The position numbers were made by a program, and so were the translations under genes. Positions 7,502 to 20,434 of a stretch of 20,645 nucleotides of DNA are shown piece after piece (position 1 is the stretch's first letter; each line of letters starts with the position of its first letter). Origin of the DNA: a virus; IMG/VR virus record IMGVR_UViG_3300044623_000172, positions 1 through 20,645 of that record; one strand, given 5' to 3'. The notes under the pieces were generated by a model, which did not search any database, had not been told where the DNA came from, and worked only from the letters and a program-made list of their open reading frames with translations.

Positions 7502-7858
7502 TTATTTTAAATACTTTATAATTTCGGCTAAATTTCCAATAATAAAACCTATTACACCAGAACCACCGATTACATACCATTTCCACTGCTCGAGAGCGGA
7601 TACTCTGGTATTCATCTTTTCCAAATCTTGCACAACATCTTTCTTAATTTCAGCATGTTGATCTTGCGAGATTTGAGCATTTGCTTGCATCTTATGCTCG
7701 ATGCGTGTTTGCATGTCGTCGATCTTATCCACGATTTCTCTATTAGAAGTTGTGATACGAGAGTGAATCTCTTTTATGTCAGATTTCAATTCTTTAACAT
7801 CTTCTTTGATGCCGTCTACTTGTGCTTCCAATTTGGCGAGTCTCTCTGGGGATTCCAT
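7502..7858 (-). CDS. XhlA-like coiled-coil protein with C-terminal membrane anchor
   Basis: 118 aa. Residues 1-90 form a continuous amphipathic helix with heptad-like spacing (LAKLEAQVDGIKEDVKELKS and onward), followed by a single hydrophobic segment at about 94-114 (WYVIGGSGVIGFIIG) and a short basic tail. This layout, and the opening phrase, match the haemolysin XhlA family, which in phages sits in lysis cassettes and is proposed to help holins or anchor lysis proteins at the inner membrane. The start ATG 7858 directly abuts the o-spanin stop. A classical holin with two or three membrane passes is not seen nearby, so this could carry out or assist that step; that is inference. Confidence 0.7.
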   Translation of the reverse strand: MESPERLAKLEAQVDGIKEDVKELKSDIKEIHSRITTSNREIVDKIDDMQTRIEHKMQANAQISQDQHAEIKKDVVQDLEKMNTRVSALEQWKWYVIGGSGVIGFIIGNLAEIIKYLK

Positions 7859-8125
7859 TTATTTTACGCTCTCAAAAATGTTTTTCTGCGTGTTGTACCA
7901 CTCAACCCAAGTGTCAACTTTAATTTTGCATTCATGATATTGCCCGTAGTTGTCCACAACGACTTTCAAAACTTCACTTAACTTTTCAGTAGGATCTGTA
8001 GTCTTTAAGTCAGGACATGCTTCCATAAGTTGTTTTGGGACTTCTGGAAAGTTTCTCTTAACAGGTGTCGTAATCAGACATCCCGATAACAACACAACAA
8101 TAGGTAAAACTAAAAGAAGTTTCAT
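7859..8125 (-). CDS. o-spanin-like outer-membrane lipoprotein (Rz1-type)
   Basis: 88 aa. A lipoprotein signal peptide is clear: basic MK start, hydrophobic core, and lipobox LLSGC with the lipidated Cys at residue 16. The mature part is ~72 aa, with two further cysteines (C38 and one in the YHECKIK segment) and a helical C-terminus. O-spanins sit in the inner leaflet of the outer membrane and pair with an inner-membrane i-spanin to fuse the two membranes at lysis. The start overlaps the stop of the upstream i-spanin-like gene by 4 nt (ATGA), a usual spanin-pair arrangement. Unlike lambda Rz1 it is not proline-rich and not nested inside its partner. Confidence 0.75.
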   Translation of the reverse strand: MKLLLVLPIVVLLSGCLITTPVKRNFPEVPKQLMEACPDLKTTDPTEKLSEVLKVVVDNYGQYHECKIKVDTWVEWYNTQKNIFESVK

Positions 8126-8574
8126 TTCTTACCTACTGCAGCTTGATTTAAAATATCAACTGTATCAGCAGTTATCTTACACTGCGAATCAATCTTCACT
8201 TCAACTGTCTTAATCTTTTCTTGTACGACTATTTGTGTTTCTTTAACAACTTTGACTCTGTCTTTATAGACAGTGACAATCTTCTCATTTACTTCTTTAG
8301 ACTTCTGTTCAGATATTGCAATCTTGGCTTCTAACTCTGCAACTCTTTCTCTCCATGCCATCTCAACAGAGTATCCACCTTTGAAGTAAACACCTGCCAC
8401 TAAAAGCACAATGCTTATCACTTGTATTAGTAAATGATAAGGTGCAATGGTTGGAATCCAACGAACTACAAAACCAAAGAAAAACGATGCAACGAATCCA
8501 ATAATGCCAGTGATTAAGATAATGTTAATTATCCACACTAAGAAGGCATCAGGGAAAAACGCTAACATCCACAT
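8122..8574 (-). CDS. i-spanin-like inner-membrane coiled-coil protein (Rz-type)
   Basis: 150 aa. Two membrane segments lie near residues 10-36 and 46-66, followed by a long charged coiled coil (about 70-132) rich in E, K and V, including KVVKETQIVVQEKIKTVEVK. A cysteine at about residue 132 could form a disulfide-linked dimer, as in other spanins. The typical i-spanin has one N-terminal membrane pass, so the second pass is unusual and would set its topology differently; it may equally combine spanin and holin-like functions. The strong ribosome site GGAGG precedes ATG 8574 by 7 nt. Position immediately before the lipoprotein supports the pairing. Confidence 0.7.
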   Translation of the reverse strand: MWMLAFFPDAFLVWIINIILITGIIGFVASFFFGFVVRWIPTIAPYHLLIQVISIVLLVAGVYFKGGYSVEMAWRERVAELEAKIAISEQKSKEVNEKIVTVYKDRVKVVKETQIVVQEKIKTVEVKIDSQCKITADTVDILNQAAVGKK

Positions 8575-8576
8575 TA

Positions 8577-9113
8577 TTAAACCTCCACTGGTTTCGGACG
8601 ACGAATCATTCCTGCGATAGTGGATGCTTGACCAGCTTTGTATTTCTTAATTTCTTTTGGACCAATCTTTGGTTCATTGGTAGATACTGCTGCACCAGTG
8701 ACATTGGCAATACCGTCTTCTTCAAGAAACTTCTTAACGATAATCTCTTCTTCAACAAGAGACACTCTATTATCCAACATCTTCATGATATTGTCAAACT
8801 TTTCTTGTAGCATTGCAGTTGAACGATTACCTGACTCATATTGTTCTTTAACTAACCAGAGTGCAGCAACTAGAGATTTCATTTTACTCTCAGCACCTGG
8901 AAGTCTATTGATAATTTTCTTTACATTGAACACTAAACGATTCAAGTAAGTGTATGCATCTCTTTCTTGAGATGATTGCAGAGTAGTTGCTTTGCGAATG
9001 TTCTTACCCTTAGCATCAATGATACCCAGTTTGAATGCTTCTGTGTCCTCAAAGTTAGTGACTAACATTTTGAGAACTCGATATGCAATTAAATTGTCTA
9101 CTATGCGAGCCAT
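8577..9113 (-). CDS. conserved phage protein, function unknown
   Basis: 178 aa; not recognised by function. It begins MARIVDNLIAYRVLKMLVTN and is mostly predicted helical to residue ~130, with mixed charge and no membrane segment, signal peptide or cysteine cluster. The C-terminal 45 residues are Gly/Pro/Lys-rich and basic, probably extended. Similar small helical proteins occur beside lysis and structural genes in T4-like marine phages as I recall, without assigned roles. The start ATG 9113 shares one base with the stop of the upstream gene (TAATG), and AGGA lies 8 nt before it. A virion or assembly role is the simplest guess from position. Confidence 0.8.
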   Translation of the reverse strand: MARIVDNLIAYRVLKMLVTNFEDTEAFKLGIIDAKGKNIRKATTLQSSQERDAYTYLNRLVFNVKKIINRLPGAESKMKSLVAALWLVKEQYESGNRSTAMLQEKFDNIMKMLDNRVSLVEEEIIVKKFLEEDGIANVTGAAVSTNEPKIGPKEIKKYKAGQASTIAGMIRRPKPVEV

Positions 9114-9493
9114 TAAATTTTCCTAAGTGTTGATATAATCGTTTCATCCAAGACTATATCAGACAAAATAATACCGTATTCTGGTAACTCTGCTGGCATT
9201 CTATCGAGGTATACTAGAAATGTAACTAATACATCCCAACAAGATTTGTCAATTTTATGAAACAGCATTCTTGTTGCTGAATCACCGAAGATGTTATAAA
9301 GAACAATAATGTGATTGAGGATTAATCGCTCTCGCAGTTCATCATAATTTTTATATCTGGAAAGTAACTTCTTAAGATATAAGAACTTCTTTATGTCTTC
9401 TTCAAATTCTTGTAGGCTATGGCACTGCGGATTATCGTAGTGATGCATTGCGTATACAAGAAAGTTACCTTCATTTAGTTTTTCACTAACCAT
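9113..9493 (-). CDS. small conserved phage protein (DUF7207-like), function unknown
   Basis: 126 aa. The N-terminal phrase NFLVYAMHHYDNPQC (residues ~10-24) and the following EEFEEDIKKFLYLKKLL helix resemble a small family I recall from T4-like marine phages (DUF7207; I am not certain of the accession). The rest is helical, with a well-spaced Leu/Ile pattern and two more cysteines. No enzyme motif is seen. The gene starts 17 nt after the terminator stem of the structural gene upstream and is joined to the next gene by a TAATG overlap, so the two probably form a unit. Its role is unknown. Confidence 0.78.
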   Translation of the reverse strand: MVSEKLNEGNFLVYAMHHYDNPQCHSLQEFEEDIKKFLYLKKLLSRYKNYDELRERLILNHIIVLYNIFGDSATRMLFHKIDKSCWDVLVTFLVYLDRMPAELPEYGIILSDIVLDETIISTLRKI

Positions 9494-9509
9494 ATTATCT
9501 TCAAAAAAG

Positions 9510-9532
9510 AAAGGGAGAACAACTCTCCCTTT
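9510..9532 (-). terminator. intrinsic terminator after the mosaic structural protein
   Basis: 9-bp stem AAAGGGAGA / TCTCCCTTT with a 5-nt loop, followed in the minus direction by TTCTTTTTTG. It lies 16 bp past the stop of the 425-aa gene and just before the next gene. Good stem plus U-run makes this a convincing rho-independent terminator. Confidence 0.88.
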
Positions 9533-9541
9533 TACATTATG

Positions 9542-9549
9542 TATTTATT
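9542..9549 (-). promoter_or_regulatory. possible late promoter element (AATAAATA)
   Basis: Matches 7 of 8 bases of the T4 late element and overlaps the tandem stop codons of the 425-aa gene. A transcript starting ~6 nt downstream would carry the terminator hairpin in its leader, which argues against it or implies control by that hairpin. Confidence 0.18.
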
Positions 9550-10825
9550 AGCTATCTCTGAAGGCTACATCGTCAGATTGGTCACCAGTCATTGAACCCA
9601 TGGCAACTAATGTTTCATACTGAACACGACCAGCACGACCACCAGTACCAACAGTACGACGAACCCAACCAGCATGTTGCGAACCACCAACAGCACCATC
9701 ACCTAGTGCAGCAGTAGCAGTTGCTTGGTCAGCAGTTGCTTGAAGTTCAAAGTACTGAGCACTATTACCAGTGCCAGAAATTAGAACGAGTGTAAATGGA
9801 GCATATGTCAAACCAGTTGGTGTACCAGCTGTAGTAACAATAGCAACATCAGCTTCAGTGGTTAGTGTAAAACCAGTGACAGATGGTGATGTACCAGTAA
9901 CAGCAGAAACAGTATAGATAGTTCCTGTTGCATAACTAGTAATAGTGCCAGTTCCACCTAGTGTACCAGTAATTCTAATACGATCACCAACTGCTAGGGT
10001 AGTTGCAGTACAAGTAAACTGACCACCAGTACCAGAAATAGCAACACCAGCAAGAGCAGTACGACCTGCAGCTGCATCTGCAGTAGTTGCTAGACGGAAA
10101 GTGCCTGCAGCTAAACCAAGAGCAGATACGAAATACTCAGTATCATTTGATAAACCAGTGATAGCAGTAGAACCAGCATGGAAATACTTAACTGAGTCAG
10201 CAGCAACTAAGCCGTGAGTAGCATAAGCGATTTGCTCAGTAGCAATTGTAACACTACCTGTAGGAATAACACGACGAGGTTTAGCAATAGTAACAGTTGG
10301 TGCTGAAGTATAAGCAGTACCAGTATTAGTTACAGCGATTGACGAAACTGCGCCACCAGAGATAGATGCAGTGGCTGCAGCAGAAGAACCACCACCGCCA
10401 GAGAATGTAACTGCTGGAACTTCTAGGTAACGAGTTTTACCAGAAGCAACTGATACAGCGGAAACATTGTCTCCACCAGATACAGCTTCAGTAGCGTCAA
10501 CACCGAATACTAAACCAGATCTGCCCATTGAAAATGTGTCGGCAGAGCCGTGTGCCACATATACAGGTTTCTCAGATAGAGTATAAGAAGTGCCACCAGT
10601 TACAGTAGTAACTAAACCTTTACCATTGTTTGTACCATTGATAACTTTAGCCACAGTGTTAGATGTGATTGTAACGATTTGATAATCTACACCACCAGCG
10701 ATGATATAGTTACCTACTTTTGATTCAGTTGTAAACAGCGTAGATGTACCAGTCACTACACCAGTATCGGCGATAGCGATTGTTCCAGTTGCTGATTTAG
10801 AGTCTTTGTTGCCCCATAGTGCCAT
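9548..10825 (-). CDS. mosaic beta-rich virion structural protein
   Basis: 425 aa, very rich in Thr, Ala, Gly, Ser and Val. The opening MALWGNKDS and the closing GWVRRTVGTGGRAGRVQYET to VAFRDS region resemble structural proteins of T4-like cyanophages and other marine phages. Between them lie shuffled beta modules: ~140-185 (SGGAVSSIAVTNTGTAYTSA then PTVTI), ~195-265 (THGLVAADSVKYFHAGST then AITGLSNDTEYFV), and ~275-345 (VGDRIRITGTLGGTGTI to PTGLTY), each found in many tail and decoration proteins. No signal, membrane or catalytic motif is seen. An excellent ribosome site (AAGGAG, 8 nt before ATG) and its own terminator point to high late expression. The exact place in the virion is not known. 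Confidence 0.8.
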   Translation of the reverse strand: MALWGNKDSKSATGTIAIADTGVVTGTSTLFTTESKVGNYIIAGGVDYQIVTITSNTVAKVINGTNNGKGLVTTVTGGTSYTLSEKPVYVAHGSADTFSMGRSGLVFGVDATEAVSGGDNVSAVSVASGKTRYLEVPAVTFSGGGGSSAAATASISGGAVSSIAVTNTGTAYTSAPTVTIAKPRRVIPTGSVTIATEQIAYATHGLVAADSVKYFHAGSTAITGLSNDTEYFVSALGLAAGTFRLATTADAAAGRTALAGVAISGTGGQFTCTATTLAVGDRIRITGTLGGTGTITSYATGTIYTVSAVTGTSPSVTGFTLTTEADVAIVTTAGTPTGLTYAPFTLVLISGTGNSAQYFELQATADQATATAALGDGAVGGSQHAGWVRRTVGTGGRAGRVQYETLVAMGSMTGDQSDDVAFRDS

Positions 10826-10854
10826 TTTGTGTCTCCTTAGATTTGGACTTTAAT

Positions 10855-12738
10855 TTATTTATTCATTAGTTTTGAAGTGCCTGTAATCTTACGAGCACCA
10901 GATTTTGCCCCAGCTGGGCGACCACGACCACGCTTTTCAGCTGCTGGCTTTATTGGTTTTTTGTCATCATAATCATCTGCGCCTTCTGGATCAGTGTAAC
11001 TTGCTCCATAAGAACGACCTTTAATTTGAGTAACTCCGCCTGGACCTGGAGTGTACTCTAACATAAACTCTTTATACGAAACTTTGTTAGAGATTAAATT
11101 ACCTTCGTCATCGAAAGATTCTTTAACTGGTTTCTTTACCTTCTTAACTGCTTCCCATTTTTCTTCATGGGCAGCATCTCCAGCTGCATTTACTTTAACT
11201 TCTACTGACTTTGCCTCATTCATTTCAGAGTGCATGTAGTCAGCTGCAGTTTGGATATAGTCAGTGGCAAGAGTAATCTTAGATTGAACCCATTCTGGCA
11301 TGTCAGTGTCTGGCTTTAGAATTTCTTTGATCATTTCAGCACATCTTGTTAGAGTTGCCAATTGATTCAAAGCCATGTCACCTTCGTAACCATACTCTTG
11401 TTCGTCTTTTTCTTCTTTAATCTTATTGGTTGGCATACCATTGATTGGTTTGCGTGAATCTTTCAACGCTTTATTCTCTGGTGTACCCTTGATATATTTT
11501 CTATCTGGAACTGGAGCAACAGGTGCTTGTTCATTGGCTTTTGCCATTTTCTGCATTGCTTGTCCAGCAAGGTTTGCTGCTTTACCAGAACCTTGTTTAT
11601 TCTCAGTAGATTTCTTCCAGTCACCTTCGTATTTGAAAGAGATTAGTTTACCTGATTTATCTTTTGTAGTTGTCATCTTGTCTTCACTGCGCAGAGCACG
11701 ACCGATTGCTACATTATGATCTCTAGCAGTTTTATGTTTTGGATCAGCATCTGGAACTGGGTTGTTAAGTTTATAACGAGCACCACGAGAAGCATCCATA
11801 GTTTTACGCATCATAGCATTTTGTTTGTTGCGCTCTTCCAAAGATTCAAATTCTTCGTTGGCAGTTTTAGCTGCATCTTTAAAGTCGCTTGCGCTTGGAG
11901 CACCTTCGCTTCCAGGTTTGCGCATTCTTTCACCAGAGCCAGCTTCAATACGCTTTTTCTTAGCATGAATATTCGCATAGAGTCCTGGTTTTGCTTCTTC
12001 AATCTGCTCAACTTCTTCTGTTGTTTCATAAACACGAGAAACTTCTTTATGATTAACTGTCTTAGCAGTATATGTGCCCTTTTCATCTTTGGCTCGAATT
12101 GTACCAGTAGAAGGGATTTTGTCTGCTTCTTTTTTAAATTTTTCAGTAGCCTTTAACGCTCCAGAAGAAAATGCACCTTCATCGATCTCAACTTCTTCAC
12201 CCATGTTTAGAGTTCTTCTTTTGTTAGCAATTAAAGCACCTTTGGCTTTACCAGATTTCATAAGGTTACTTAACTTTTGACGAGCAACTGATTTATTGCT
12301 AATATCGTCAAGTGTATTAAGTTTAGTCTTCATGCGATGAATTTCATCTAGCTCTTCTGTTTCTTCGCTAAAATGACTATAAGGAACTGTAGTCTTGGTA
12401 GATGTCTTGTTAGAAGTAAAGTGAACATCTTGAACATCACGATGAACATTTACTTTAGCACCAGTCTCATCTTTAAAAGAAGTTTTTTCACCATGTTTTA
12501 AATTTCTAATTGCTTCTTGATGTTCTGGATGTAAAGGATATGAATGACTGGCTCCGTGATGAACAGTCATCACCTTACCCCCTTCATACTTCTGTGTCTT
12601 CACAGTTGCTTCTTCTAACTGTTCAGTTTCTTCTTTACGCAAAAGTTTAAAGTCATGAGAATCGATTTGACCATTCTTATTCTTATCGATGTTATGCTGT
12701 TTACCCTTCAACGCTTCCATAAATGATTTGAATTCCAT
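10855..12738 (-). CDS. large modular internal-virion-type protein with EF-hand and repeated LxE linkers
   Basis: 627 aa, highly charged, no membrane segment. It begins MEFKSFME, like other proteins in this cluster (possible capsid-targeting peptide). An EF-hand loop follows at residues 18-29 (DKNKNGQIDSHD: D18, N20, N22, Q24, D26, D29). Five acidic linkers, at 36-44, 125-133, 181-188, 241-249 and 295-303, share E-E-x-E-x-[LI]-[DE]-E and separate small basic modules of ~55-90 aa. One of these (249-293, KPGLYANIHAKKKRIEAGSG then ERMRKPGS) resembles a module I recall in other marine viruses. Residues ~453-508 form a helical module (DMPEWVQSKITLATDYIQTA); the C-terminus is Arg/Gly/Lys-rich (RGRGRPAGAKSGARK), probably DNA-binding. 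It starts 2 nt after the Dps-like gene, with GGGGA upstream. No enzyme activity recognised; an internal head or core protein is the best guess. Confidence 0.82.
   Translation of the reverse strand: MEFKSFMEALKGKQHNIDKNKNGQIDSHDFKLLRKEETEQLEEATVKTQKYEGGKVMTVHHGASHSYPLHPEHQEAIRNLKHGEKTSFKDETGAKVNVHRDVQDVHFTSNKTSTKTTVPYSHFSEETEELDEIHRMKTKLNTLDDISNKSVARQKLSNLMKSGKAKGALIANKRRTLNMGEEVEIDEGAFSSGALKATEKFKKEADKIPSTGTIRAKDEKGTYTAKTVNHKEVSRVYETTEEVEQIEEAKPGLYANIHAKKKRIEAGSGERMRKPGSEGAPSASDFKDAAKTANEEFESLEERNKQNAMMRKTMDASRGARYKLNNPVPDADPKHKTARDHNVAIGRALRSEDKMTTTKDKSGKLISFKYEGDWKKSTENKQGSGKAANLAGQAMQKMAKANEQAPVAPVPDRKYIKGTPENKALKDSRKPINGMPTNKIKEEKDEQEYGYEGDMALNQLATLTRCAEMIKEILKPDTDMPEWVQSKITLATDYIQTAADYMHSEMNEAKSVEVKVNAAGDAAHEEKWEAVKKVKKPVKESFDDEGNLISNKVSYKEFMLEYTPGPGGVTQIKGRSYGASYTDPEGADDYDDKKPIKPAAEKRGRGRPAGAKSGARKITGTSKLMNK
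10856..10863 (-). promoter_or_regulatory. possible T4-like late promoter for the 425-aa structural gene
   Basis: AATAAATA (7/8 match to TATAAATA) overlapping the stop codon of the 627-aa gene. The predicted leader is ~25 nt, containing AAGGAG. A dedicated late promoter would suit a gene with a strong ribosome site and its own terminator. Confidence 0.35.
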
Positions 12739-12740
12739 TC

Positions 12741-13187
12741 TTATTCCCCAGTAGTTTTTAGGATGGATCTTAGCATCCAGCCGTGTTTCTTATGCGCATC
12801 TAATCTAGAAGCCACAAAATCAGCAAAACCTTGCTCTTTTGCAACAGTCAGTAGATCGAATAACTTATTTAGGCGAACAATGCTTTCGTTGTTCGCTGCA
12901 AGTAAATCAGCCAGCATTGTCTCTGGAGTGTGTCCAACATTCCCTGCATCTATAGACTTATGAACATAAATCTCGTCTAGGTTTCTTGGAGCATACTCGT
13001 TCATTGCACGGATCTCTTCTGCAAATGGATCGACTGCACCATAGAGTTCTTCGTATAGATTACCGAAGAATTCGTGTAGTTGAGGGAAGTCTTTACCTTC
13101 CACATTCCAGTGATAAGAGTGTGCCTTGAAATACATCAAAAATGTATTGCTTAGACAGACTCTTGCTTCTAATAATGTTTCGTTCAT
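12741..13187 (-). CDS. Dps-like ferritin-family protein
   Basis: 148 aa from ATG 13187, chosen because it lies one base past the stop of the upstream gene and begins right before the conserved first helix; the longer frame to 13238 would overlap that gene by 50 nt. All four ferroxidase residues of E. coli Dps (H51, H63, D78, E82) are matched with identical spacing: H26 in SYHWNV, H38 in QLHEFF, D53 and E57 in DPFAEEIR. Dps proteins form hollow 12-mers that oxidise and store iron using H2O2, and many protect DNA. The Lys-rich N-terminal tail that lets E. coli Dps bind DNA is absent. It lies between a DUF6321-like gene and the 627-aa modular gene, not with metabolic genes, so a virion-linked or DNA-protecting role in infection is possible. 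Confidence 0.92.
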   Translation of the reverse strand: MNETLLEARVCLSNTFLMYFKAHSYHWNVEGKDFPQLHEFFGNLYEELYGAVDPFAEEIRAMNEYAPRNLDEIYVHKSIDAGNVGHTPETMLADLLAANNESIVRLNKLFDLLTVAKEQGFADFVASRLDAHKKHGWMLRSILKTTGE

Positions 13188-13188
13188 C

Positions 13189-13569
13189 TTAACAGTTCCA
13201 CTTTCTAAGTGCGAGTGCTTTACGACTTGGCTCGCCATTTGGTTTCTTCATTGAACCTTCCATGCCACCCATTCGTGCACAGAAAGATTTTCTACGATTT
13301 GCTGCTTTGCTTCCAGCTTTTAATTCAGATGGAGGAGTGGTAACTGGTGCTTGTAAATTAGCACCTTTAGCATTATATGCGTCACGACCTTTTTGAGTCA
13401 GACCACCAGTAGAACTCTTGTGTCCTTTGGCATCAACTGCTGCTTCTTGAACAGTTTCTTCTTTAACACAAGATCCAGGTGCACATGGTTTAGTTCCTGG
13501 AACTCGCTTGTGACCTTTCCAGCAATCACAGGACTCATTTAAATATTCTGCAAATGATTTAAAAGACAC
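13189..13569 (-). CDS. small Cys/basic phage protein, DUF6321-like C-terminus
   Basis: 126 aa from GTG 13569, supported by AAAGGAG about 9 nt upstream, and overlapping the end of the 740-aa gene by 11 nt. It starts MSFKSFAEYLNES, a peptide shared in form with its neighbours (possible capsid-targeting and protease site, L-N-E). A Cys/Gly/Pro-rich segment follows (CDCWKGHKRVPGTKPCAPG, with four cysteines). From ~residue 54, the run GGLTQKGRDAYNAKGANLQA, then PPSELKAGSKAANRRKSF and the closing ALALRKWNC match the family I know as DUF6321, widespread in phages, function unknown. The C-terminal part is strongly basic and would suit nucleic-acid contact. Confidence 0.85.
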   Translation of the reverse strand: MSFKSFAEYLNESCDCWKGHKRVPGTKPCAPGSCVKEETVQEAAVDAKGHKSSTGGLTQKGRDAYNAKGANLQAPVTTPPSELKAGSKAANRRKSFCARMGGMEGSMKKPNGEPSRKALALRKWNC

Positions 13570-15781
13570 TTGGCATTGCTCCTTTAGTTACTTTACCATG
13601 AGACATTCTAGACTTTTCTACTTTACGAACTCTAGAAACTAATTTCTGAGCAACACGAGAGATAATATCTTTTCTCTTTGACATCATTTTTTCAATTCGT
13701 TCTTTTTCACCAATAGAAACTTTAGCAGGATCACGACCACGAAGCATTCTCTTCTTCATTAGTTTAATCGCCAATCTTCTTGCTCGTTTATTAATAGTTG
13801 CTGGGTTTGAGAATCTCTTTAATGCAATCTTAGTTGAACGACCACGCTTTGCAGAAGTCTTACGGAGACGAATCTTACCTTTCATTCTTTCTGTGCGAGA
13901 AAGAACTTCCATTAGATCATACTTGGCTTCTTCTTGTAGTGGTGGGATTTCTTCACCATCGTCATCATACACTAAAACGATTTCATCTTCTTCATAGAGA
14001 TCTTCAATGTCTTGATCAGTAACAGAGTCTACCATTTCTTCAATTTCTGCATCAGTAAAATCTTCTTTGAAGAATGGGTCTTTTGACATTGTTGAGTCAG
14101 TACCAACTCCAGGTCTTTGTTCGCCACAAGCACACTCGTGTTTACCACATTTTGGACAAACTGCTTTCTCACCAGAAAATGCCTTACGAGCAGTTTCAAT
14201 ATTCTTTAGTTTAGTGGCAATAATTTTATGTCCACGGGATTCTTCTAAATCAGCTTCTTCATGTAGATCTGCACCAACAGTTTTATGTGGTGATCTTTTA
14301 ACATGATCTACAAAGTTCTTAGCATCACTATGTGATTTGAATTTGAAGAAAGCACCCTTATCTGAGTGACCATCGAATTCACCACCATGTGTTTTAGCAC
14401 CAGACATTACATGTTCGACATCTTTGTCATGAGGTTCTTCACCATACTTGCTACCATCATCAACATGGACGATATGTTCTTCGTCTAGTTCTTCTTTCAT
14501 TTGACCATGTTTCTTTAGATCATTATCGAATTGTTTGTTGGTTGCTTTGTTGATACCTTTAAATCGTTTGTCACCTTTGGCATAGTCACCAGAGGCATCA
14601 GCTGCTTTAGCAGATGCAGCTGCACCTGTTTTATATCTTGCTAGTAGATCAGTTGATAGTTCATTAATGTTTTCTTTTTCTTGTGTATGCTTAGCATCAA
14701 GAGTTTCTTTTTCTTTAGCGTGTTTGAGAGCCAACTGCGCTTTCATTCTCTCTTTAGCAACTTGATCTACATCTTCTGTTTGATATTTAACTTTCATATG
14801 TCGAAGATGGTGAGCACTTCCAGGAACTAATGTATGACCAACTTCACTTGGATTATATGTGTTTAACTCTTCAGTATCGTCTTCATCAGTAAGATGCGAC
14901 TCTTTCATGTTGTAATTATAGAATGTCAAGAAACCTTTAGTCTTACCAGCTGGCTTAGTGATGTCTTGTTTAGCACCAGTATCTGATGTAGATGGCTCTA
15001 GTTTATCTGTGCCGTTTGGTTGTATGACTGCTTCTTTCATTTCTTTTTCTTCCGTAGGTTTAACATCTTGAATCCATTTGGAAACGAGATTGCCTGACTG
15101 TTCTTTTAATAGTAAATGATTTGAACCACGCTTAACGATTGTAAACAAATCACCATTTGATTCTACAATGTCACCTTCATTAAAAATCTCTCCACGAAAA
15201 TATTCTTCACGGAGTTTATTTTTAACTAAAATTAAGTTTTCTTTGACTGGTTCTAAACCTAAGCCAATGCGGACATCGTTCATTAGACGACGACCATCAA
15301 GTTCACGAATGTTGCTTGGTAGCTTCTTTTTAAATTCTTCGTACAATCCTTTAATCGCCAACTGCTTCATTTTAGCAAAGTTGACATCAGGATTCTTTTC
15401 CGTGATTGGAATAATTTGGATGGAGGTATTTTCTTTAACAAGTTTCTTTAGTTTATCGACTTGTTCGCTTCCAGTAACTATTACAATCTTCTTGTATTTC
15501 TTACCCAAATCTTCTAGAAGGTTATTGATCTTAGACTCGTTCACAGATTGGAACTTAGTCTTAGGGAACATTAACTTGAGGTATTGTTCCTTCTTCTCTT
15601 CTTGAATTAGGCTATCTTTAGTGGATGCGTAGATGACATGGTCAGTATTCTTTTGCTCTGACAGTCTATTGACAGTCTTAACCATTAATTCATGTGCTGT
15701 AGTTGGAGGATCGAAATCTCCGAAGGCACAAACTAAGGTTGTTGACGGTAGTTCTTTGATTAGTTGTCTATAATCTTTCAT
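13559..15781 (-). CDS. multi-module protein: HxGH-type nucleotidyltransferase-like domain, SH3-like and basic domains
   Basis: 740 aa from ATG 15781. That start gives MKDYRQLIKE, close to the T4 capsid-targeting peptide MKTYQEFIAE; ATG 15790 adds three residues and has no ribosome site. Residues ~17-155 have a cytidylyl/adenylyltransferase-type Rossmann fold, with FGDFDPPTTAHE (20-31) in place of the usual GxFxPxHxGH; the first His and the Gly are replaced, so activity is uncertain. ~194-240 is an SH3/KOW-like module (EIFNEGDIVESNGDLFTIVK). Further modules are joined by I-N-E (372-374), L-D-E (432-434) and L-E-E (512-514). Four cysteines (542, 545, 550, 552) could bind zinc. The last ~120 residues are very basic and helical (TINKRARRLAIKLMKKR), likely DNA- or RNA-binding. 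Probable internal virion protein; no pathway can be named. Confidence 0.78.
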   Translation of the reverse strand: MKDYRQLIKELPSTTLVCAFGDFDPPTTAHELMVKTVNRLSEQKNTDHVIYASTKDSLIQEEKKEQYLKLMFPKTKFQSVNESKINNLLEDLGKKYKKIVIVTGSEQVDKLKKLVKENTSIQIIPITEKNPDVNFAKMKQLAIKGLYEEFKKKLPSNIRELDGRRLMNDVRIGLGLEPVKENLILVKNKLREEYFRGEIFNEGDIVESNGDLFTIVKRGSNHLLLKEQSGNLVSKWIQDVKPTEEKEMKEAVIQPNGTDKLEPSTSDTGAKQDITKPAGKTKGFLTFYNYNMKESHLTDEDDTEELNTYNPSEVGHTLVPGSAHHLRHMKVKYQTEDVDQVAKERMKAQLALKHAKEKETLDAKHTQEKENINELSTDLLARYKTGAAASAKAADASGDYAKGDKRFKGINKATNKQFDNDLKKHGQMKEELDEEHIVHVDDGSKYGEEPHDKDVEHVMSGAKTHGGEFDGHSDKGAFFKFKSHSDAKNFVDHVKRSPHKTVGADLHEEADLEESRGHKIIATKLKNIETARKAFSGEKAVCPKCGKHECACGEQRPGVGTDSTMSKDPFFKEDFTDAEIEEMVDSVTDQDIEDLYEEDEIVLVYDDDGEEIPPLQEEAKYDLMEVLSRTERMKGKIRLRKTSAKRGRSTKIALKRFSNPATINKRARRLAIKLMKKRMLRGRDPAKVSIGEKERIEKMMSKRKDIISRVAQKLVSRVRKVEKSRMSHGKVTKGAMPSVF

Positions 15782-15808
15782 ACGATCCATCTATAAAGTA
15801 GTACATAT

Positions 15809-15815
15809 TATTTAG
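15809..15815 (-). promoter_or_regulatory. possible late promoter element (CTAAATA) for the 740-aa gene
   Basis: CTAAATA in the 46-bp gap before the 740-aa gene, within the 10-mer CCTAAATAAT that recurs at 20463-20472. Late promoters of T4-like cyanophages have been described with this kind of sequence. The predicted leader is ~22 nt. TATAAAC just upstream (15820-15826) is an alternative. Confidence 0.4.
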
Positions 15816-15827
15816 GAGTTTATATCC

Positions 15828-16064
15828 TTACATTACAGCTAGCATGCCCTGTGCTGCAGCAACGATCCAACGACAGGCGATTTCGTCTGAGGCTAGTTCT
15901 TGTTGTGCACGGATGTCAGCTATCTCTTGTAGAAGGAATGCATACTCTTCAGAAGTTAATTGTCCTGCTGCATAGTTCTCGTGGATTACTAGGAGTTCGT
16001 TTGCCAATGATGCTGCTGGACCACCTAGTCCAACCTGTTCTCTTAATTCGTTTAAGATACTCAT
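15828..16064 (-). CDS. small conserved phage protein, function unknown
   Basis: 78 aa from ATG 16064, chosen because AAGGG lies 8 nt upstream and the ATG follows the lipoprotein stop by one base; a longer frame to 16085 overlaps the lipoprotein. It is a compact, acidic, mostly helical protein (MSILNELREQVGLGGPAASL and onward), Ala/Leu/Glu-rich, with no membrane segment or cysteine cluster (one Cys in the EIACRW segment). Not recognised by function. The pattern LLxIHENYAAGQLTSEEYAF suggests a helix-loop-helix bundle that could be a small virion or chaperone component. It lies between a lipoprotein and the 740-aa protein. Confidence 0.75.
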   Translation of the reverse strand: MSILNELREQVGLGGPAASLANELLVIHENYAAGQLTSEEYAFLLQEIADIRAQQELASDEIACRWIVAAAQGMLAVM

Positions 16065-16065
16065 T

Positions 16066-16413
16066 TTATCTACCCTTCCAAGCATCGATGGTTACATCGA
16101 CTCGTGTTTTATTAAGTTTAACAATACTCTCGCAGAATAAAGCACTCTTGCTTTCTTTGGCTTTCTTTAATGCTTCTTCCATCTTGCCGAATGCATCCGA
16201 TTGAGGATCACCTCGTTCGAAAGAGTAAACTTTGAGAGTTTCTACTTTGTCCAAAACTGGTTGCCAATTGGACTTATCTTCACAGCTAATCTTACTTAGT
16301 CCTACTTTAATCTCGATTGCTTGACCAAACATAACTGGGTCATGTGGCTTGGGAAAGATTACTGCACAGCCAGAAAGAACTACTAATGATAGTGCTAGGA
16401 TTAATCTTTTCAT
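16066..16413 (-). CDS. phage lipoprotein, function unknown
   Basis: 115 aa. The signal peptide MKRLILALSLVVLSGC ends in a lipobox (VLSGC) with the lipidated Cys at residue 16. The mature part is ~100 aa, mixed alpha/beta, with two cysteines (in KISCEDKS and ALFCESIV) that may form a disulfide in the periplasm. No known domain recognised. It is joined by ATGA overlap to the 602-aa gene, so it is made together with the presumed packaged proteins. Options are a superinfection-exclusion lipoprotein, a second o-spanin-like protein, or an envelope factor; its distance from the lysis cluster (about 8 kb) makes exclusion at least as likely as lysis. All of these are inference. Confidence 0.78.
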   Translation of the reverse strand: MKRLILALSLVVLSGCAVIFPKPHDPVMFGQAIEIKVGLSKISCEDKSNWQPVLDKVETLKVYSFERGDPQSDAFGKMEEALKKAKESKSALFCESIVKLNKTRVDVTIDAWKGR

Positions 16414-18218
16414 TTCATCGCTTTCCTTAGGTCGTTGTAAAGAGCATCTTTATGTTCTGGTTTCATCTGACTTGATAGATGAGAATGGAATTCTTCTTTC
16501 TTACCTGCTGATGCTAACCCTCTTAACTTAGTTCCAGAGACACCCTCAACACCTTTAGCATTTTCGTCTCGTTTACCAGCGTTCTCAAATGTAATGTCCT
16601 TAAAGTTATACTCTCCATGAGCACCTTTAACTCCATTATATTTCTTGAGTAGATCAGCCATTGGTTTACGATCTTCACCACCAGCAAAGTGTAGATGAGT
16701 CACACCTTGTTTATGTAAGTCTGCTGCTTGTTGAAGGATAGTTGGACTTTGTTTATCAGCAACTTTGATATTAGTTCCAGGGAATGCATTTTGCGCATGC
16801 ATTAATTTTTGCTCAGGAGAAAGAGGATTCTTTGCTTTCTTCTTTTCAGCTGCAGTTGTATCTTGAGAACCAGATAGAACTAGAGTATGTCCACCACCGA
16901 ATTTCTTGGCAGTGTTCTGCATATGTTGAACAAGTTTCTCATGACCAGCAGTTGGTGGGTTCATACGACCAAATGCGATTGTATGATGATTATCAGAAGC
17001 ATTAGTATTACCTTCTTGTGCTCCACGAGACTTCAACAGATTCTGACGAGCAAACTCTGCACGATTGACCAACTTGGTTGGCTCTGTTACACCATTGTGA
17101 GTATGATTGTAAACAAAACCTTCTGGTTTGGAAGCAACCCCACCGATAGAATGCTCATATCCACCTTCGTTTGATTCAAGACTATTGACCAATTCATTCT
17201 TGGCATTGGCAAGATGACCATGCATCTTTAGTAGATTGTCGTAGTGTTCTTTGTTCTTGTCAATGTGTGCCAATTGAGCACCAGCATTATCCATAATCTC
17301 TTGCTTCTTGGCAGGAGTTTTAATCTTTTCGAACTTTTTCTTCAACTGAGAAGAAACATGGTCTTTAAAACCATCGCTGGAAGGAGTTTCCCCTGTACGA
17401 ACTGTTTGATTGATGTAGGTTGCTAGATGTCCTGCTTCACCACTATGCTCTGCGTGAATTGCTTTATACATCTTGGCACCATGAGTCTCATGAATAGTCT
17501 TGGCTTTGGATAATTCTCCAAGCACTTTCTGTTGAGACTGTTCAGAGTACTTTGCACCTGCAGCATCGTAGCTGGCAGTGTGGTGATAGATGTCTGAGTG
17601 AGAGCCGAAGTCACCTTCAGAAACATTACCAGTTGCACGCATGTTGCTTAGGTTAGTTCCTTCGTATTTGGTATGAGTAACTAAACCAAATTTAGATTTG
17701 TTAATTGATGCAGCTTTATCACCCTTTGCACCATAAGTGATAGTGTTCGGTGTGAAAGAAGTTTTGTCTCCTTCTTTCTTAAGATCAGGTTTAGTGAACA
17801 TCACATCACCTTGGAATACACCTTTCTTTGGTGCAATCTTTGGTGCATGTTCTAATGCTGCTTTAAGTTTTTCTACAAGACCTGGAGCATGTCCATGATT
17901 CTTCTCAACATCTTCAGGTGTATAATTTAGTTTTGGATTTTTATTGAAGGCAGACTTTGATGCAACAAAGAATTTACCATTCTCTGGGTGGTGTCCATAA
18001 ACCAAAGATGGCGAACCATCGTACTTCATCGTCAGTTTGTTGGAGTTCATACCTTGTTTGGTATGGAAGTGTGCACCATGTAGAGCATTATACGCATGAT
18101 TGAATCCGTCTGCTCCATGGAACAGTGGACGATCCTCAGCGTGAGTAATGTGTTTGAGTTTTGCACCTTCTTCGGTCGGTGCACCTTCAGTCAAAAAGTC
18201 TTTAAATCCTAGCATCAT
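16410..18218 (-). CDS. fusion: ligase-like covalent nucleotidyltransferase plus HxGH adenylyl/cytidylyltransferase
   Basis: 602 aa (601 if the second of two tandem ATGs is used). The N-terminal M-L-G-F-K-D-F-L-T-E resembles the T4 capsid-targeting peptide. Residues ~55-190 plus ~362-392 look like the ligase/capping-enzyme superfamily: motif I KYDGS (nucleophile K65), a motif-III-like VFQGDVMF (134-141), motif IV PEGFV (E366) and motif V TKLVNR (K382), with a helical insert at ~215-350. Residues 411-570 form a nucleotidyltransferase with a complete FGRMNPPTAGH (416-426) and VSGTKLR (560-566, the ISSTxxR equivalent), as in NMN adenylyltransferases. Chemistry could be RNA/DNA end processing or NAD-type coupling; not determinable here. 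A consensus promoter precedes the gene, with predicted +1 at its ATG. The assignment of the N-half is inference from motifs. Confidence 0.8.
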   Translation of the reverse strand: MMLGFKDFLTEGAPTEEGAKLKHITHAEDRPLFHGADGFNHAYNALHGAHFHTKQGMNSNKLTMKYDGSPSLVYGHHPENGKFFVASKSAFNKNPKLNYTPEDVEKNHGHAPGLVEKLKAALEHAPKIAPKKGVFQGDVMFTKPDLKKEGDKTSFTPNTITYGAKGDKAASINKSKFGLVTHTKYEGTNLSNMRATGNVSEGDFGSHSDIYHHTASYDAAGAKYSEQSQQKVLGELSKAKTIHETHGAKMYKAIHAEHSGEAGHLATYINQTVRTGETPSSDGFKDHVSSQLKKKFEKIKTPAKKQEIMDNAGAQLAHIDKNKEHYDNLLKMHGHLANAKNELVNSLESNEGGYEHSIGGVASKPEGFVYNHTHNGVTEPTKLVNRAEFARQNLLKSRGAQEGNTNASDNHHTIAFGRMNPPTAGHEKLVQHMQNTAKKFGGGHTLVLSGSQDTTAAEKKKAKNPLSPEQKLMHAQNAFPGTNIKVADKQSPTILQQAADLHKQGVTHLHFAGGEDRKPMADLLKKYNGVKGAHGEYNFKDITFENAGKRDENAKGVEGVSGTKLRGLASAGKKEEFHSHLSSQMKPEHKDALYNDLRKAMK

Positions 18219-18224
18219 ATTACT

Positions 18225-18253
18225 ATTATACCCTAAGTTGCAATTATTGTCAA
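18225..18253 (-). promoter_or_regulatory. perfect-consensus sigma70 promoter, predicted leaderless start
   Basis: TTGACA (18248-18253), 17-bp spacer, TATAAT (18225-18230): both hexamers match consensus exactly. Counting six bases past the -10 places +1 at 18218, the A of the first ATG of the 602-aa gene, and no ribosome site lies upstream. It sits in the only sizeable gap of the right-hand gene block. Confidence 0.85.
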
Positions 18254-18279
18254 GCGATAACCCTACGGAATTGAGGGGA

Positions 18280-19518
18280 TTATTGCAGCTTGAAAGTGCC
18301 TACTGCGCTCTTGTGAGCACCAGAGGATGATTTAATCGTATAGCGAGCAGCAACTACTGGCTTGTTAGTCTTAGCATGGATACCCTTAATGGTAACTGAT
18401 GTTCCTTTTCCTGGAACTACATGTAAAGAGTCTGGCTTAAATTGCGATAGATGTTCATCGGCTAAACTGTGCATTGGTTTGATCACAGATTCTGCTTCTC
18501 CGTTATCTTTAACTTTACTGTGCACAACTGTATGAGGAATATGAGTATTTGGTGATACATTCTGACGAATGATATTTGCTAGATCTTCTGACTTGTGTTG
18601 CGCCATACCTGTAGCAAACGATTGAGTCATTTGAGTTCTTGCGGCAAGATTAGATGCACGAGCAGTTGATGCTCTTTGACTTGCTTGTTGACGGAATGCT
18701 TCTTGTTTCTTTTCTGGTAGTGCGTCGTGTGCTTGGATAAATTTGTCCAAGTGTTCATGCATGATTTTCTTTTTACCAGAAAGTTTCTTACCTGCTTGCA
18801 TTGCAGCAAGACCTTCAGCATGTTTCTGACGAATGTCGTTGATGGGCATTTCGTCAATCTTAGTTTGAATGTTTCTTTGATCTGCTGAGCCAGTGTATCC
18901 CATTTTCTCCATGGCATCAGTATGATGTTGCATTGGAGCACCAAGAGATCCAGATGATAGTTTAGCAGTTTTCTCTAATGCATCAAGTCCTGGATTACGA
19001 TAGTTCGGTTCTTGTGAACCATACTTAGCAGAGATGCCATGATGTCCGACTGGCTTACCTTCTTTATCGTGTAGTGTAACAATCAAGTCAGCATTAGAGT
19101 TTACATCTTTAACACCAGTAGTCTTTTCGTGGTCACCAGCAACATTCGCTTTGTCAGCATTGGATGTCCAGTGAACATTACCGATGTGCGCATGGTCACC
19201 AATATGTCCTTGGTCTTGCATGCTTTGTTTAAATGCTGCTGCAGATTGTTTTGCATGACGATCAATTTCGTCATATGCTGCAGCTGGAATCTTTTCTCTT
19301 AGTTTATCGTGTACTTGTTCTGGAGTACCAGCATGGTCTGGGTTGTCAGAGAAAGAACGATGATGCTCTGGAAGTTTAGTTTCAGGATGTAGATGTTTTG
19401 CTAAAAGTATCTCATGGAGTTTACCTTTATCATCTGAATCAACTGATGAAGATTCTGCTTCTAACAGCAAGTCTTCATTTAGTGCTTCTTCTTTAAGAAA
19501 TAATTTGAAATTTAACAT
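18280..19518 (-). CDS. PD-(D/E)XK-like nuclease-fold protein with capsid-targeting-like N-terminus
   Basis: 412 aa. The start M-L-N-F-K-L-F-L-K-E matches the ten-residue targeting pattern, ending in an L-K-E protease-type site. The probable nuclease core runs ~30-180: E36 in the KLHEILLAKHL helix, VHWTS (115-119), the metal-binding strand NADLIVTL with D144, and GISAKYG with K165, then YRNPGLD. The D...SxK order is the variant of the PD-(D/E)XK signature in which the acidic residue is replaced by Ser. The 303-aa protein just upstream has the same motifs in the same order. Residues 180-300 are helical, His/Gln/Ala-rich; 310-412 form a separate basic beta domain. The start is 4 nt after the upstream stop. 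A DNA nuclease or restriction-like role is inferred. Confidence 0.72.
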   Translation of the reverse strand: MLNFKLFLKEEALNEDLLLEAESSSVDSDDKGKLHEILLAKHLHPETKLPEHHRSFSDNPDHAGTPEQVHDKLREKIPAAAYDEIDRHAKQSAAAFKQSMQDQGHIGDHAHIGNVHWTSNADKANVAGDHEKTTGVKDVNSNADLIVTLHDKEGKPVGHHGISAKYGSQEPNYRNPGLDALEKTAKLSSGSLGAPMQHHTDAMEKMGYTGSADQRNIQTKIDEMPINDIRQKHAEGLAAMQAGKKLSGKKKIMHEHLDKFIQAHDALPEKKQEAFRQQASQRASTARASNLAARTQMTQSFATGMAQHKSEDLANIIRQNVSPNTHIPHTVVHSKVKDNGEAESVIKPMHSLADEHLSQFKPDSLHVVPGKGTSVTIKGIHAKTNKPVVAARYTIKSSSGAHKSAVGTFKLQ

Positions 19519-19522
19519 ATGT

Positions 19523-20434
19523 TTACCATGGATCCCCAGAGAGTTTTAAAGATGATGCCATCTTTTCTGACTCGAATTTAAAACGAATCTTCATAATCTT
19601 TTTTTCACCAGCTTTTACGCCAATTGATTCGTTGCCTACTTTTTCTAAAGTGATGGGATACTTTGATAACGCATCTAATTTCTCGTTTTTCACTGGATCC
19701 ATCACTGTTGCTTTATAGGGAGGTTTACTTCCCTGTCCTGTAACTTTAATATATGGAGGATACTGCACCTCAGCATCCATCCAATCAGAGAGAAGATATT
19801 TTAACAACTCTTGTTGTTTAAATTTTAACAGTCTCTCTAATAATTTATCTCTCATACCTGACATCATTTTAACACCAATCTCCTCAGTCTCTTTTTTGAC
19901 TTCTGGATGTGTTCTAATAAAAACTTTTCTCTCTGTCGCAGGGTTGGGTAACTTAAATCTAGTTATAGTATCTTGCAATAATAATTTGTATTCATTGGCA
20001 AGAGACATAGTAAGATTAGTATCAATAGTTCCAACACCTGGATTCTTAAATCCAATATCACCTGATCCTTGAGTTGCTTTAGCAGACAATCCTAAAAACC
20101 CATCTGCTGGACCATCATTAAATTTAACCAATATATCAGTTGGATTCTTTTTCTGGTCTACGAATCTACCAACTGCTGATGTCATAGAGTTAGGTCTAGC
20201 AGTCCACCAAACTTTATTAACGAATCCTTTGTATTTATTGTCTTTAGCCCAATCAATAAAATACTCTGCCATTGCTCTGGCTTTACCTTCAGCATCTGCT
20301 ACTTCTTCTGGCTTGGCTTGCTTTACACGCTGATCGTATTGTAATTTAGCAGACGAGTCAAACCATTTATCACCTGCTAAAACATAGCCTGTATAAATTT
20401 CGTTAATGTCTGATAATACGGTGTTTGCAGTCAC
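19523..20434 (-). CDS. PD-(D/E)XK-like nuclease-fold protein, relative of the 412-aa neighbour
   Basis: 303 aa from GTG 20434, supported by AGGA six nt upstream. Motifs in order: E12 in NEIYTGYVLAG (helix A), KVWWTARP (74-81), NPTDILVKF with D100, GLSAKATQGSGDIGFKNPG with K119. D100 to S117-A-K119 is a PD-x(n)-SxK variant of the restriction-endonuclease fold. The C-terminal half (~150-303) is helical then beta-rich and basic, with no motif recognised. Unlike its neighbour it has no FKxF-type start peptide. Similar proteins, with the WWTARP and SAK phrases, occur in T4-like marine phages as I recall, without known function. Nuclease activity is predicted, not shown; loss of the acidic active-site residue could also mean DNA binding only. 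Confidence 0.75.
   Translation of the reverse strand: MTANTVLSDINEIYTGYVLAGDKWFDSSAKLQYDQRVKQAKPEEVADAEGKARAMAEYFIDWAKDNKYKGFVNKVWWTARPNSMTSAVGRFVDQKKNPTDILVKFNDGPADGFLGLSAKATQGSGDIGFKNPGVGTIDTNLTMSLANEYKLLLQDTITRFKLPNPATERKVFIRTHPEVKKETEEIGVKMMSGMRDKLLERLLKFKQQELLKYLLSDWMDAEVQYPPYIKVTGQGSKPPYKATVMDPVKNEKLDALSKYPITLEKVGNESIGVKAGEKKIMKIRFKFESEKMASSLKLSGDPW

Follow-up and report, generated by a model that had tools for sequence, protein, structure and literature searches.

A candidate capsid-targeting leader on predicted payload enzymes of a Kyanoviridae-like T4-type myovirus

Genes and N-terminal leaders at the locus

The window analysed here, a 20,645-nucleotide (20.6-kb) stretch of viral DNA, carries on one strand five genes, P1 to P5 (Table 1), whose N-termini and coordinates had been listed in an earlier note made from the sequence alone and all match the window. 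That note claimed that all five begin with capsid-targeting (CTS) peptides of the T4 type. When the leader is defined by aromatic or hydrophobic residues at positions 4 and 7, an aliphatic residue at 8 and Glu at 10, it is exact in P3, P4 and P5, is present in P2 after a two-residue extension, and fails in P1. The N-terminus of P2 is MSFKSFAEYLNE, read from a GTG codon with AGGAG upstream, and its homologues begin two codons further on, with a ten-mer of canonical form (MKSFTDYLNE, MKKFTDFINE, MKSFKSFLEE); we therefore read P2 as MS followed by FKSFAEYLNE, with Glu at position 12. The suggestion that P1 and P2 share a leader one residue shorter does not hold, as P2 has the canonical form behind MS and P1 has its Glu at position 8. 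This Glu-8 form is retained only in close relatives of P1, distant ones having a longer form or none, and none of 50 unique homologues reached the full leader score. Thus P2 fits the original claim better than had been supposed, while P1 is suggestive only and its membership in the group uncertain.

Table 1. Genes and candidate leaders in the window
Feature	Positions	Strand	Description
P1, 627 aa	10855..12738	-	Short leader-like MEFKSFME, then EF-hand-like loop
P2, 126 aa, GTG start	13189..13569	-	Candidate leader MS-FKSFAEYLNE (two-residue extension), then DUF6321
P3, 740 aa from 15781 (743 aa from 15790)	13559..15790	-	Candidate CTS leader, NMNAT/cytidylyltransferase-like domain, long C-terminal modules
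P3 CTS-like leader MKDYRQLIKE	15752..15781	-	At least 3/4 motif positions in 50/59 unique homologues
P4, 601/602 aa	16410..18218	-	Candidate CTS leader, DUF6267 (ligase-like motifs), NMNAT-like domain
P4 CTS-like leader MLGFKDFLTE	18186..18215	-	At least 3/4 motif positions in 71/74 unique homologues
P5, 412 aa	18280..19518	-	Candidate CTS leader, predicted PD-(D/E)XK nuclease body
P5 CTS-like leader MLNFKLFLKE (residues 1-10)	19489..19518	-	Motif positions kept in 52/53 unique homologues

The bodies behind these leaders are diverse. P4 combines DUF6267 (Pfam PF19782, 4.9e-89, 299.8 bits against a gathering cut-off of 27) with a C-terminus that is well supported as a predicted NMNAT/NadD-type nucleotidyltransferase, having matches to the Rossmann fold of NadD at probability 1.00 (8aih, E 3.9e-4), a phrog_3041 match (1.6e-43) and, in its [HT]xGH motif, invariant T422, G424 and H425. 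Also invariant are KYDG (64-67), GD, EGFV (365-368) and K381. The earlier description of P4 as a ligase/adenylyltransferase fusion is borne out for its adenylyltransferase half by the NadD fold and [HT]xGH motif; the ligase half is suggested by sequence motifs, and no ligase appears among the PDB fold or profile matches listed. A homologous NMNAT-like domain occurs in P3, where residues 11-249 match phrog_3041 (6.7e-25) and, below the cut-off, Pfam CTP_transf_like; the [HT]xGH position reads TTAH in P3 and TxGH in many relatives. P2 carries DUF6321 (PF19846, 2.4e-23, 83 bits against a cut-off of 28.5), and the EF-hand match in P1 is below the cut-off (E 0.058).

P5 gave no match in Pfam, by sequence in the PDB, or by tblastn in annotated phage records, and searches of solved structures with P4 and P5 profiles returned nothing useful. 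The best PDB folds for P5 are the restriction enzymes MspI (probability 0.97, E 0.006) and HinP1I (0.96, E 0.012), both with low TM. Together with the invariant residues E36, D144, S163 and K165, of which D144 and S163xK165 form a candidate D...(D/E/x)xK active site, these matches give moderate support to the nuclease fold first proposed for this protein, and we predict that P5 is a PD-(D/E)XK nuclease. In AF2 models of P4 and P5 the leaders are low-confidence tails on ordered bodies, with pLDDT below 50 for residues 1-6 and 8-17 of P4 (helix 2-9) and residues 1-19 of P5 (helix 4-9).

Frequency and conservation of the leader

The exact motif stands at the start of 17 of 2,284 genes in 11 genomes, compared to a mean of 0.74 and a maximum of 4 in 300 shuffles. 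Three of these genes lie in the window, where 0.014 would be expected (residues 2-13 shuffled, every candidate start), although this count is post hoc because the motif was derived from those very genes; the ten other genomes supply 14 genes that count independently, the mean of 0.74 covering all 11. A slightly wider form of the motif occurs at internal codons at a rate of 2e-4. We also considered whether P1 and P3 might be polyproteins with modules joined by [LI]-x-E sites for cutting by gp21. Relative to shuffled sequences such sites are in excess in P3 (z 3.5) and P5 (z 3.1) but not in P1 (0.8) or P4 (0.1), and a polyprotein organisation is therefore not supported as a general feature.

Among IMG/VR homologues of P2-P5, conservation falls on leader columns 4, 7, 8 and 10, with drift at 2, 3, 5, 6 and 9. 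In T4, mutagenesis of the CTS showed that residues 4 and 7 are required for targeting and 8 and 10 for cleavage (PMC9026906), so the alignment of N-termini that had been suggested as a check finds the leader retained at the residues that matter in T4. Changes at motif codons are mostly synonymous in P4 and P5, where the intervening codons vary freely, and the trend is weaker in P3. In 33 homologues of P5, F7 and E20 are invariant and F4 and E10 at least 90% conserved, with L18-L-E20 forming a second candidate cut site. Position 10 of P3 is Q in four and G in one of the 50 homologues that keep at least three of the four positions, making processing doubtful in those relatives. About ten relatives of P4 begin one codon upstream (MILGF..., MVLGF...) and have no Met at the position of 18215, so that the motif does not decide between the two starts of this gene as had been proposed.

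The leader is common to non-homologous bodies, including further families in relatives, and the sets of cargo vary strongly from one relative to another. A full leader score was found in 30 of 33 fused NMNAT-DUF6267 proteins; where the two are separate, NMNAT proteins usually have a leader of their own (full score 37/60), and DUF6267 proteins reach the full score in 22 and come near it in 13 of 48. In HTVC008M, Syn9 and S-PM2 few or none of the homologues bear it. The 20.6-kb window, a fragment from which absence in the genome does not follow, has no match to the Pfam S77 protease. The gp21-type (S77) protease that the earlier note had said to look for is present, with conserved motifs GEL[GN]HP and GVS[ST]R, in nine reference phages and in a near-complete relative of 163.6 kb (G001), which also encodes gp22 and gp23. 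Its gp23 has a matching cut site, ELNE|A, compared to FLTE|A in T4 and FLSE|A in Melnitz.

Virion proteomics of relatives and alternative explanations

Virion mass spectrometry has been published for several cultured relatives and can be compared with the leader, although detection in a virion does not establish that a protein lies inside the head or is injected. S-CREM2 has just three strict-motif proteins, a SAM hydrolase, a kinase and a cytidylyltransferase, and these are exactly the three 'regulatory' proteins reported from its virion (p = 0.012); with a relaxed motif, partly tuned after the S-CREM2 N-termini had been viewed, all six proteins at annotated starts are reported as detected (p = 1.3e-4). 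The NMNAT homologue has the leader and is reported from the virion in S-CREM2 (ORF154; PMC10665884), S-SCSM1 (SSCSM1_91; PMC9602691), S-SZBM1 (SSZBM1_140; PMC9146016) and S-SM1 (SSM1_190; PMC3037559), contradicting, for homologues, the absence from virions that the earlier note had named as grounds against its proposal. In S-PM2 the homologue lacks the leader and is undetected. DUF6267 proteins without a leader in S-CREM2, S-SCSM1 and S-SZBM1 do not appear among the virion proteins listed. Leaders in S-CREM2 include MKNFSSFLTE in ORF154 and MKRFDAFLTE in ORF14, and Melnitz_15 bears a leader as well. Several proteins of the payload cluster, including SSCSM1_90 and SSZBM1_139, are reported as detected yet have no leader, which indicates that it is not the sole route into the virion. 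No NMNAT homologue was found in S-CBWM1 with phrog_3041.

We propose, with a probability of about 85%, that P2-P5 are CTS-directed, gp21-matured internal-head (ejection) proteins of a Kyanoviridae-like T4-type myovirus. Because the leader is the address tag shared with T4, and the tagged proteins of relatives are mostly non-structural and found in virions, packing of an enzyme payload together with the DNA is very probable for this phage, and its injection likely.

The leader may instead bring the proteins to the prohead core in the service of head assembly, with no role as injected effectors. T4 core proteins are likewise gp21 substrates, and near terL a conserved leader-bearing gene of 106 aa has a product that is missing from the MS-positive proteins of S-SCSM1 and S-SZBM1. 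We nevertheless regard this as unlikely, since homologues persist in mature virions in the four reports cited above, the bodies are predicted metabolic and nucleic-acid enzymes, and the cargo differs so strongly between relatives. Less probable still is a function unrelated to the capsid, in which the helix would serve to dock each protein onto a phage or host partner (the replisome, a membrane or the sliding clamp). The helix is amphipathic and the cluster adjoins genes for replication (in Syn9, S-PM2, Melnitz and HTVC008M it lies downstream of gp41/MazG), but the four conserved columns are those of T4, the leader tracks reported virion detection in five phages (the four named and S-PM2), and two of its bearers in S-CREM2, the kinase and the SAM hydrolase, are encoded far from the replication genes. 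Contamination by abundant proteins of the lysate, a concern that the S-SCSM1 authors themselves raise (PMC9602691) and that would make the detections uninformative on packaging, has a similarly slight probability, as detection is repeated across four phages and goes together with the leader, and leaderless DUF6267 proteins are unlisted for the same phages. Inheritance of a now functionless leader by duplication of one ancestral gene might be imagined from the homologous domains of P3 and P4, but is negligible given the lack of mutual similarity among P2, P5 and further cargo families and the constraint on the motif codons of P4 and P5.

A proposed route for the payload and comparison with known systems

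Under our proposal of packaged internal-head proteins, each protein would dock on the prohead core through the aromatic or hydrophobic residues at positions 4 and 7 of its short N-terminal helix, as suggested by the genetics of T4 and by conservation of the same columns here. Cleavage by the gp21 protease at [LIV]-x-E would then follow, behind Glu10 or, in P2, Glu12, with Glu20 of P5 as a possible further site, and the freed proteins would remain among the packaged DNA, the reported presence in virions being that of homologues in relatives. They would finally enter the host with the DNA and may act before phage transcription. The cargo would comprise the NMNAT-DUF6267 fusion with its nucleotidyltransferase and ligase-like motifs, the second NMNAT-like protein, the predicted nuclease and the DUF6321 protein, for which our best guess is a role in NAD+ and nucleic-acid metabolism and in takeover or counter-defence at entry.

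More broadly, we incline to the view that aquatic T4-like phages share a plug-in capsid tag with which each lineage may deliver its own enzyme kit before phage gene expression, the cargo being readable from the tag. Kits in such a reading include NMNAT with a ligase-like protein, a restriction-type nuclease, kinases, SAM hydrolase and, in S-CREM2, even Cas9. Proteomic studies of cyanophages have repeatedly detected NMNATs, kinases and uncharacterised proteins in the virion with no mechanism to account for their loading, and a short predictive leader would replace the label 'virion-associated, reason unknown' by a sorting signal open to test. With it, effectors that are injected might be catalogued from metagenome-derived genomes, and it points to new candidates for programmable packaging tags and for early counter-defence enzymes among aquatic viruses of very high abundance. 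We found no published CTS for this phage group in the open literature, where one paper mentions 'capsid targeting' in passing with cyanophages.

The closest likeness is to T4 IPII, IPIII and gene 61.1 (CTS MKTYQEFIAE), with a ten-residue leader, aromatic or hydrophobic residues at 4 and 7, an aliphatic residue at 8 and Glu at 10 (PMC9026906); as in T4, phages encoding leader-bearing proteins have gp21, as seen in relatives. The likeness is one of sequence, cleavage and packaging being predicted here, and no Pfam or PHROG match connects the bodies with the internal proteins of T4, which are small and basic whereas the cargo here consists of large multidomain enzymes and P2 has its two-residue extension. 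The cyanophage NMNAT/cytidylyltransferase T4-GC190 and its neighbours share a homologous adenylyltransferase domain, often the same leader, and the same type of cluster, but here the NMNAT is fused to DUF6267. In the accessible portions of the four virion papers such proteins are treated as virion-associated NMNATs and a targeting leader goes unmentioned (PMC10665884, PMC9602691, PMC9146016, PMC3037559). Ejection proteins of the SPN3US/phiKZ type also have N-terminal propeptides, removed after Glu by a related prohead protease (PMC5694885), as is predicted for the payload proteins described here; those propeptides are mostly longer than 100 residues, whereas the present leaders have about ten, as in T4.

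Leader frequency and genomic setting

The earlier note had proposed that five minus-strand proteins (P1 to P5) begin with a leader resembling the T4 CTS (MKTYQEFIAE), and their start sites agree with it in sequence and coordinates. The exact motif, M-x-x-[FY]-x-x-[FL]-[LI]-x-E, opens 17 of 2,284 ORFs in 11 genomes, compared to 0.74 expected when residues 2–13 were shuffled at every candidate start (maximum 4 across 300 shuffles). T4 has three matches (two internal proteins with MKTYQEFIAE and a 54-aa gene with MKTFKEFIKE), as do the window and its near-complete 163.6-kb relative G001, whose three are orthologues of P3, P4 and P5.

The 20,645-bp record is a fragment of an incomplete virus genome, with NrdA/NrdB, ThyX, primase-like and SegE-like genes. 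Among annotated phages, those closest to its cluster belong to the Kyanoviridae (Melnitz, HTVC008M, C48C1, cyanophages), and G001 shares the gene order from desaturase through P5, inserted genes aside.

Features of the window and of cyanophage relatives
Genome	Coordinates	Feature	Observation
Window	7502-8574; 16066-16413	Small lipoproteins	Lipobox-like starts; adjoin membrane-anchored proteins; resemble holin/spanin genes
Window	10855-12738	P1	EF-hand-like loop DKNKNGQIDSHD directly after short leader; AT-hook-like stretch near C-terminus (residues 602-613); both below Pfam cut-off
Window	12741-13238	Dps/ferritin-like protein	No leader; between P2 and P1, overlaps P2 end
Window	13189-13569	P2	C-terminus ...ALRKWNC, similar to ...CKARRRWNC of MS-positive S-CREM2 ORF137
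Window	15781 (start)	P3	
Window	18218/18215 (start)	P4	
Window	19518 (start)	P5	
Window	19523-20434	303-aa protein upstream of P5	GLSAKATQGS...NPG, similar to P5 GISAKYGS...NPG
S-CREM2 (OR473000)	7704-10313	Cas9-like nuclease	PLRFASFMAE at residues 17-26
S-CREM2 (OR473000)	10310-10546	Small protein	
S-CREM2 (OR473000)	10579-12846	Kinase	
S-CREM2 (OR473000)	12843-13331	Small protein	
S-SCSM1	44215-44535	terL-adjacent 106-aa protein	MK[ST]FK[SQ]F[LM]SE
S-SZBM1	about 122311-122628	terL-adjacent 106-aa protein	MK[ST]FK[SQ]F[LM]SE

One leader, different bodies

P4 had been called a ligase/adenylyltransferase fusion. Structure search placed a NadD/NMNAT fold in its C-terminal half; for the DUF6267 part, invariant KYDG, EGFV and K381 suggest a predicted ligase-type nucleotidyltransferase, with no ligase among the structure matches listed. 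The N-terminus of P3 is NMNAT-like, possibly degenerate (TTAH where TxGH is expected). For P5, earlier taken for a nuclease-fold protein, the best fold matches are MspI/HinP1I, at a modest score, and E36, D144, S163 and K165 are invariant. The body of P2 is DUF6321, which may be a C-terminal module common to virion proteins. The 303-aa protein is perhaps a second, leaderless nuclease-like protein, and the Dps/ferritin-like protein could be a DNA protector packaged by another route.

Relatives that encode NMNAT and DUF6267 as two proteins usually have a leader on each; fused, they share a single N-terminal one. As read from these sequences, the leader goes with the end of the polypeptide. It is also carried, at the same loci, by nine or more additional sequence clusters that resemble none of P1–P5. 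In P4 and P5, AlphaFold gives low confidence to the first 17–19 residues and predicts a short helix among them, as expected of a detachable leader.

Among unique IMG/VR homologues, three or all four of the key positions (4, 7, 8, 10) are kept in 52/53 for P5, 71/74 for P4, 50/59 for P3 and 30/36 for P2; ORF starts as a whole reach this level in 8% of cases and internal windows in 6%, bearing out the N-terminal conservation on which the proposal depended. Glu occupies position 10 in 52/52, 70/71, 45/50 and 30/30 of these, respectively. Change at the key codons of P4 and P5 was mostly synonymous, unlike that at the codons between them: synonymous:nonsynonymous pairs (pair counts rather than independent events, omitting leaders outside the motif) were 2537:1210 at the key codons of P4 and 1025:6811 at intervening codons, and 799:216 and 467:1169 for P5. 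P3 showed a weaker contrast, 1223:1865 and 750:2628. P1 falls short of the conservation seen in P2–P5. The P2 leader, previously thought one residue short, is a canonical ten-mer behind a two-residue extension (MS-FKSFAEYLNE), since relatives' ten-mers (MKSFTDYLNE, MKKFTDFINE, MKSFKSFLEE etc.) align two residues in; P4 relatives also show a one-residue extension (MILGFRDFLTE).

Protease and virion proteins of relatives

A gp21-type prohead protease, sought here beyond the fragment, is present in 9/9 reference phages and in G001 (order gp20, gp21, gp22, gp23). The G001 gp21, aligned to that of T4, keeps GEL[GN]HP and GVS[ST]R, and around the gp23 cut site G001 has ELNE|A (FLTE|A in T4).

For homologues, published virion mass spectrometry (S-CREM2, S-SCSM1, S-SZBM1, S-SM1) contradicts absence from virions. 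In S-CREM2 the strict motif marks 3/213 ORFs (SAM hydrolase, APH/ChoK-like kinase, cytidylyltransferase), exactly the three 'regulatory' virion proteins of PMC10665884 Table 3 (hypergeometric p 0.012). A relaxed motif, partly tuned on S-CREM2 N-termini, matches six annotated starts, 6/6 virion-positive (p 1.3e-4), and a seventh at an alternative GTG. S-SCSM1_91 (MKSFLQFLKE) and S-SZBM1_140 (MRFRQFIIE) are virion-positive, as is S-SM1 GC190 (MKKFSAFLNE); the leaderless S-PM2 counterpart was undetected (PMC3037559). There are exceptions: some virion proteins of these clusters lack the leader, and the conserved, leader-bearing terL-adjacent protein, which may belong to the core and be broken down on maturation, is absent from the S-SCSM1 and S-SZBM1 virion lists. 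All four genes of the S-CREM2 block are MS-positive and three have leader-like starts; S-CRM01 g128/g129 look similar (MKKLDQFLTE; LDSFIKEAA). A packaged Cas9, if true, would be remarkable.

Proposed role and comparison with T4

The leader would dock its protein on the prohead core and be cut after its Glu, the protein being retained in the head and ejected with DNA into the host. Phages can reconstitute NAD+, and we speculate that an NMNAT entering with the DNA might restore NAD+ against NAD-depleting defences. The CTS in T4 and virion NMNATs in cyanophages were already known; apparently new here are the tie between them and the leader on DUF6267, DUF6321 and nuclease-like families. Our search of the openly accessible literature found neither reported, and an earlier description of either is possible.

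T4 tolerates nucleases in its head: fusions to EcoRI and to staphylococcal nuclease have been packaged (PMC9026906). Ten residues of the T4 CTS suffice, positions 4 and 7 targeting and 8 and 10 processing, and Asp at position 10 leaves targeting intact while blocking cutting (PMC9026906). Judged by alignment, the columns conserved in the P2–P5 leaders, 4, 7, 8 and 10, coincide with these functional residues of T4.
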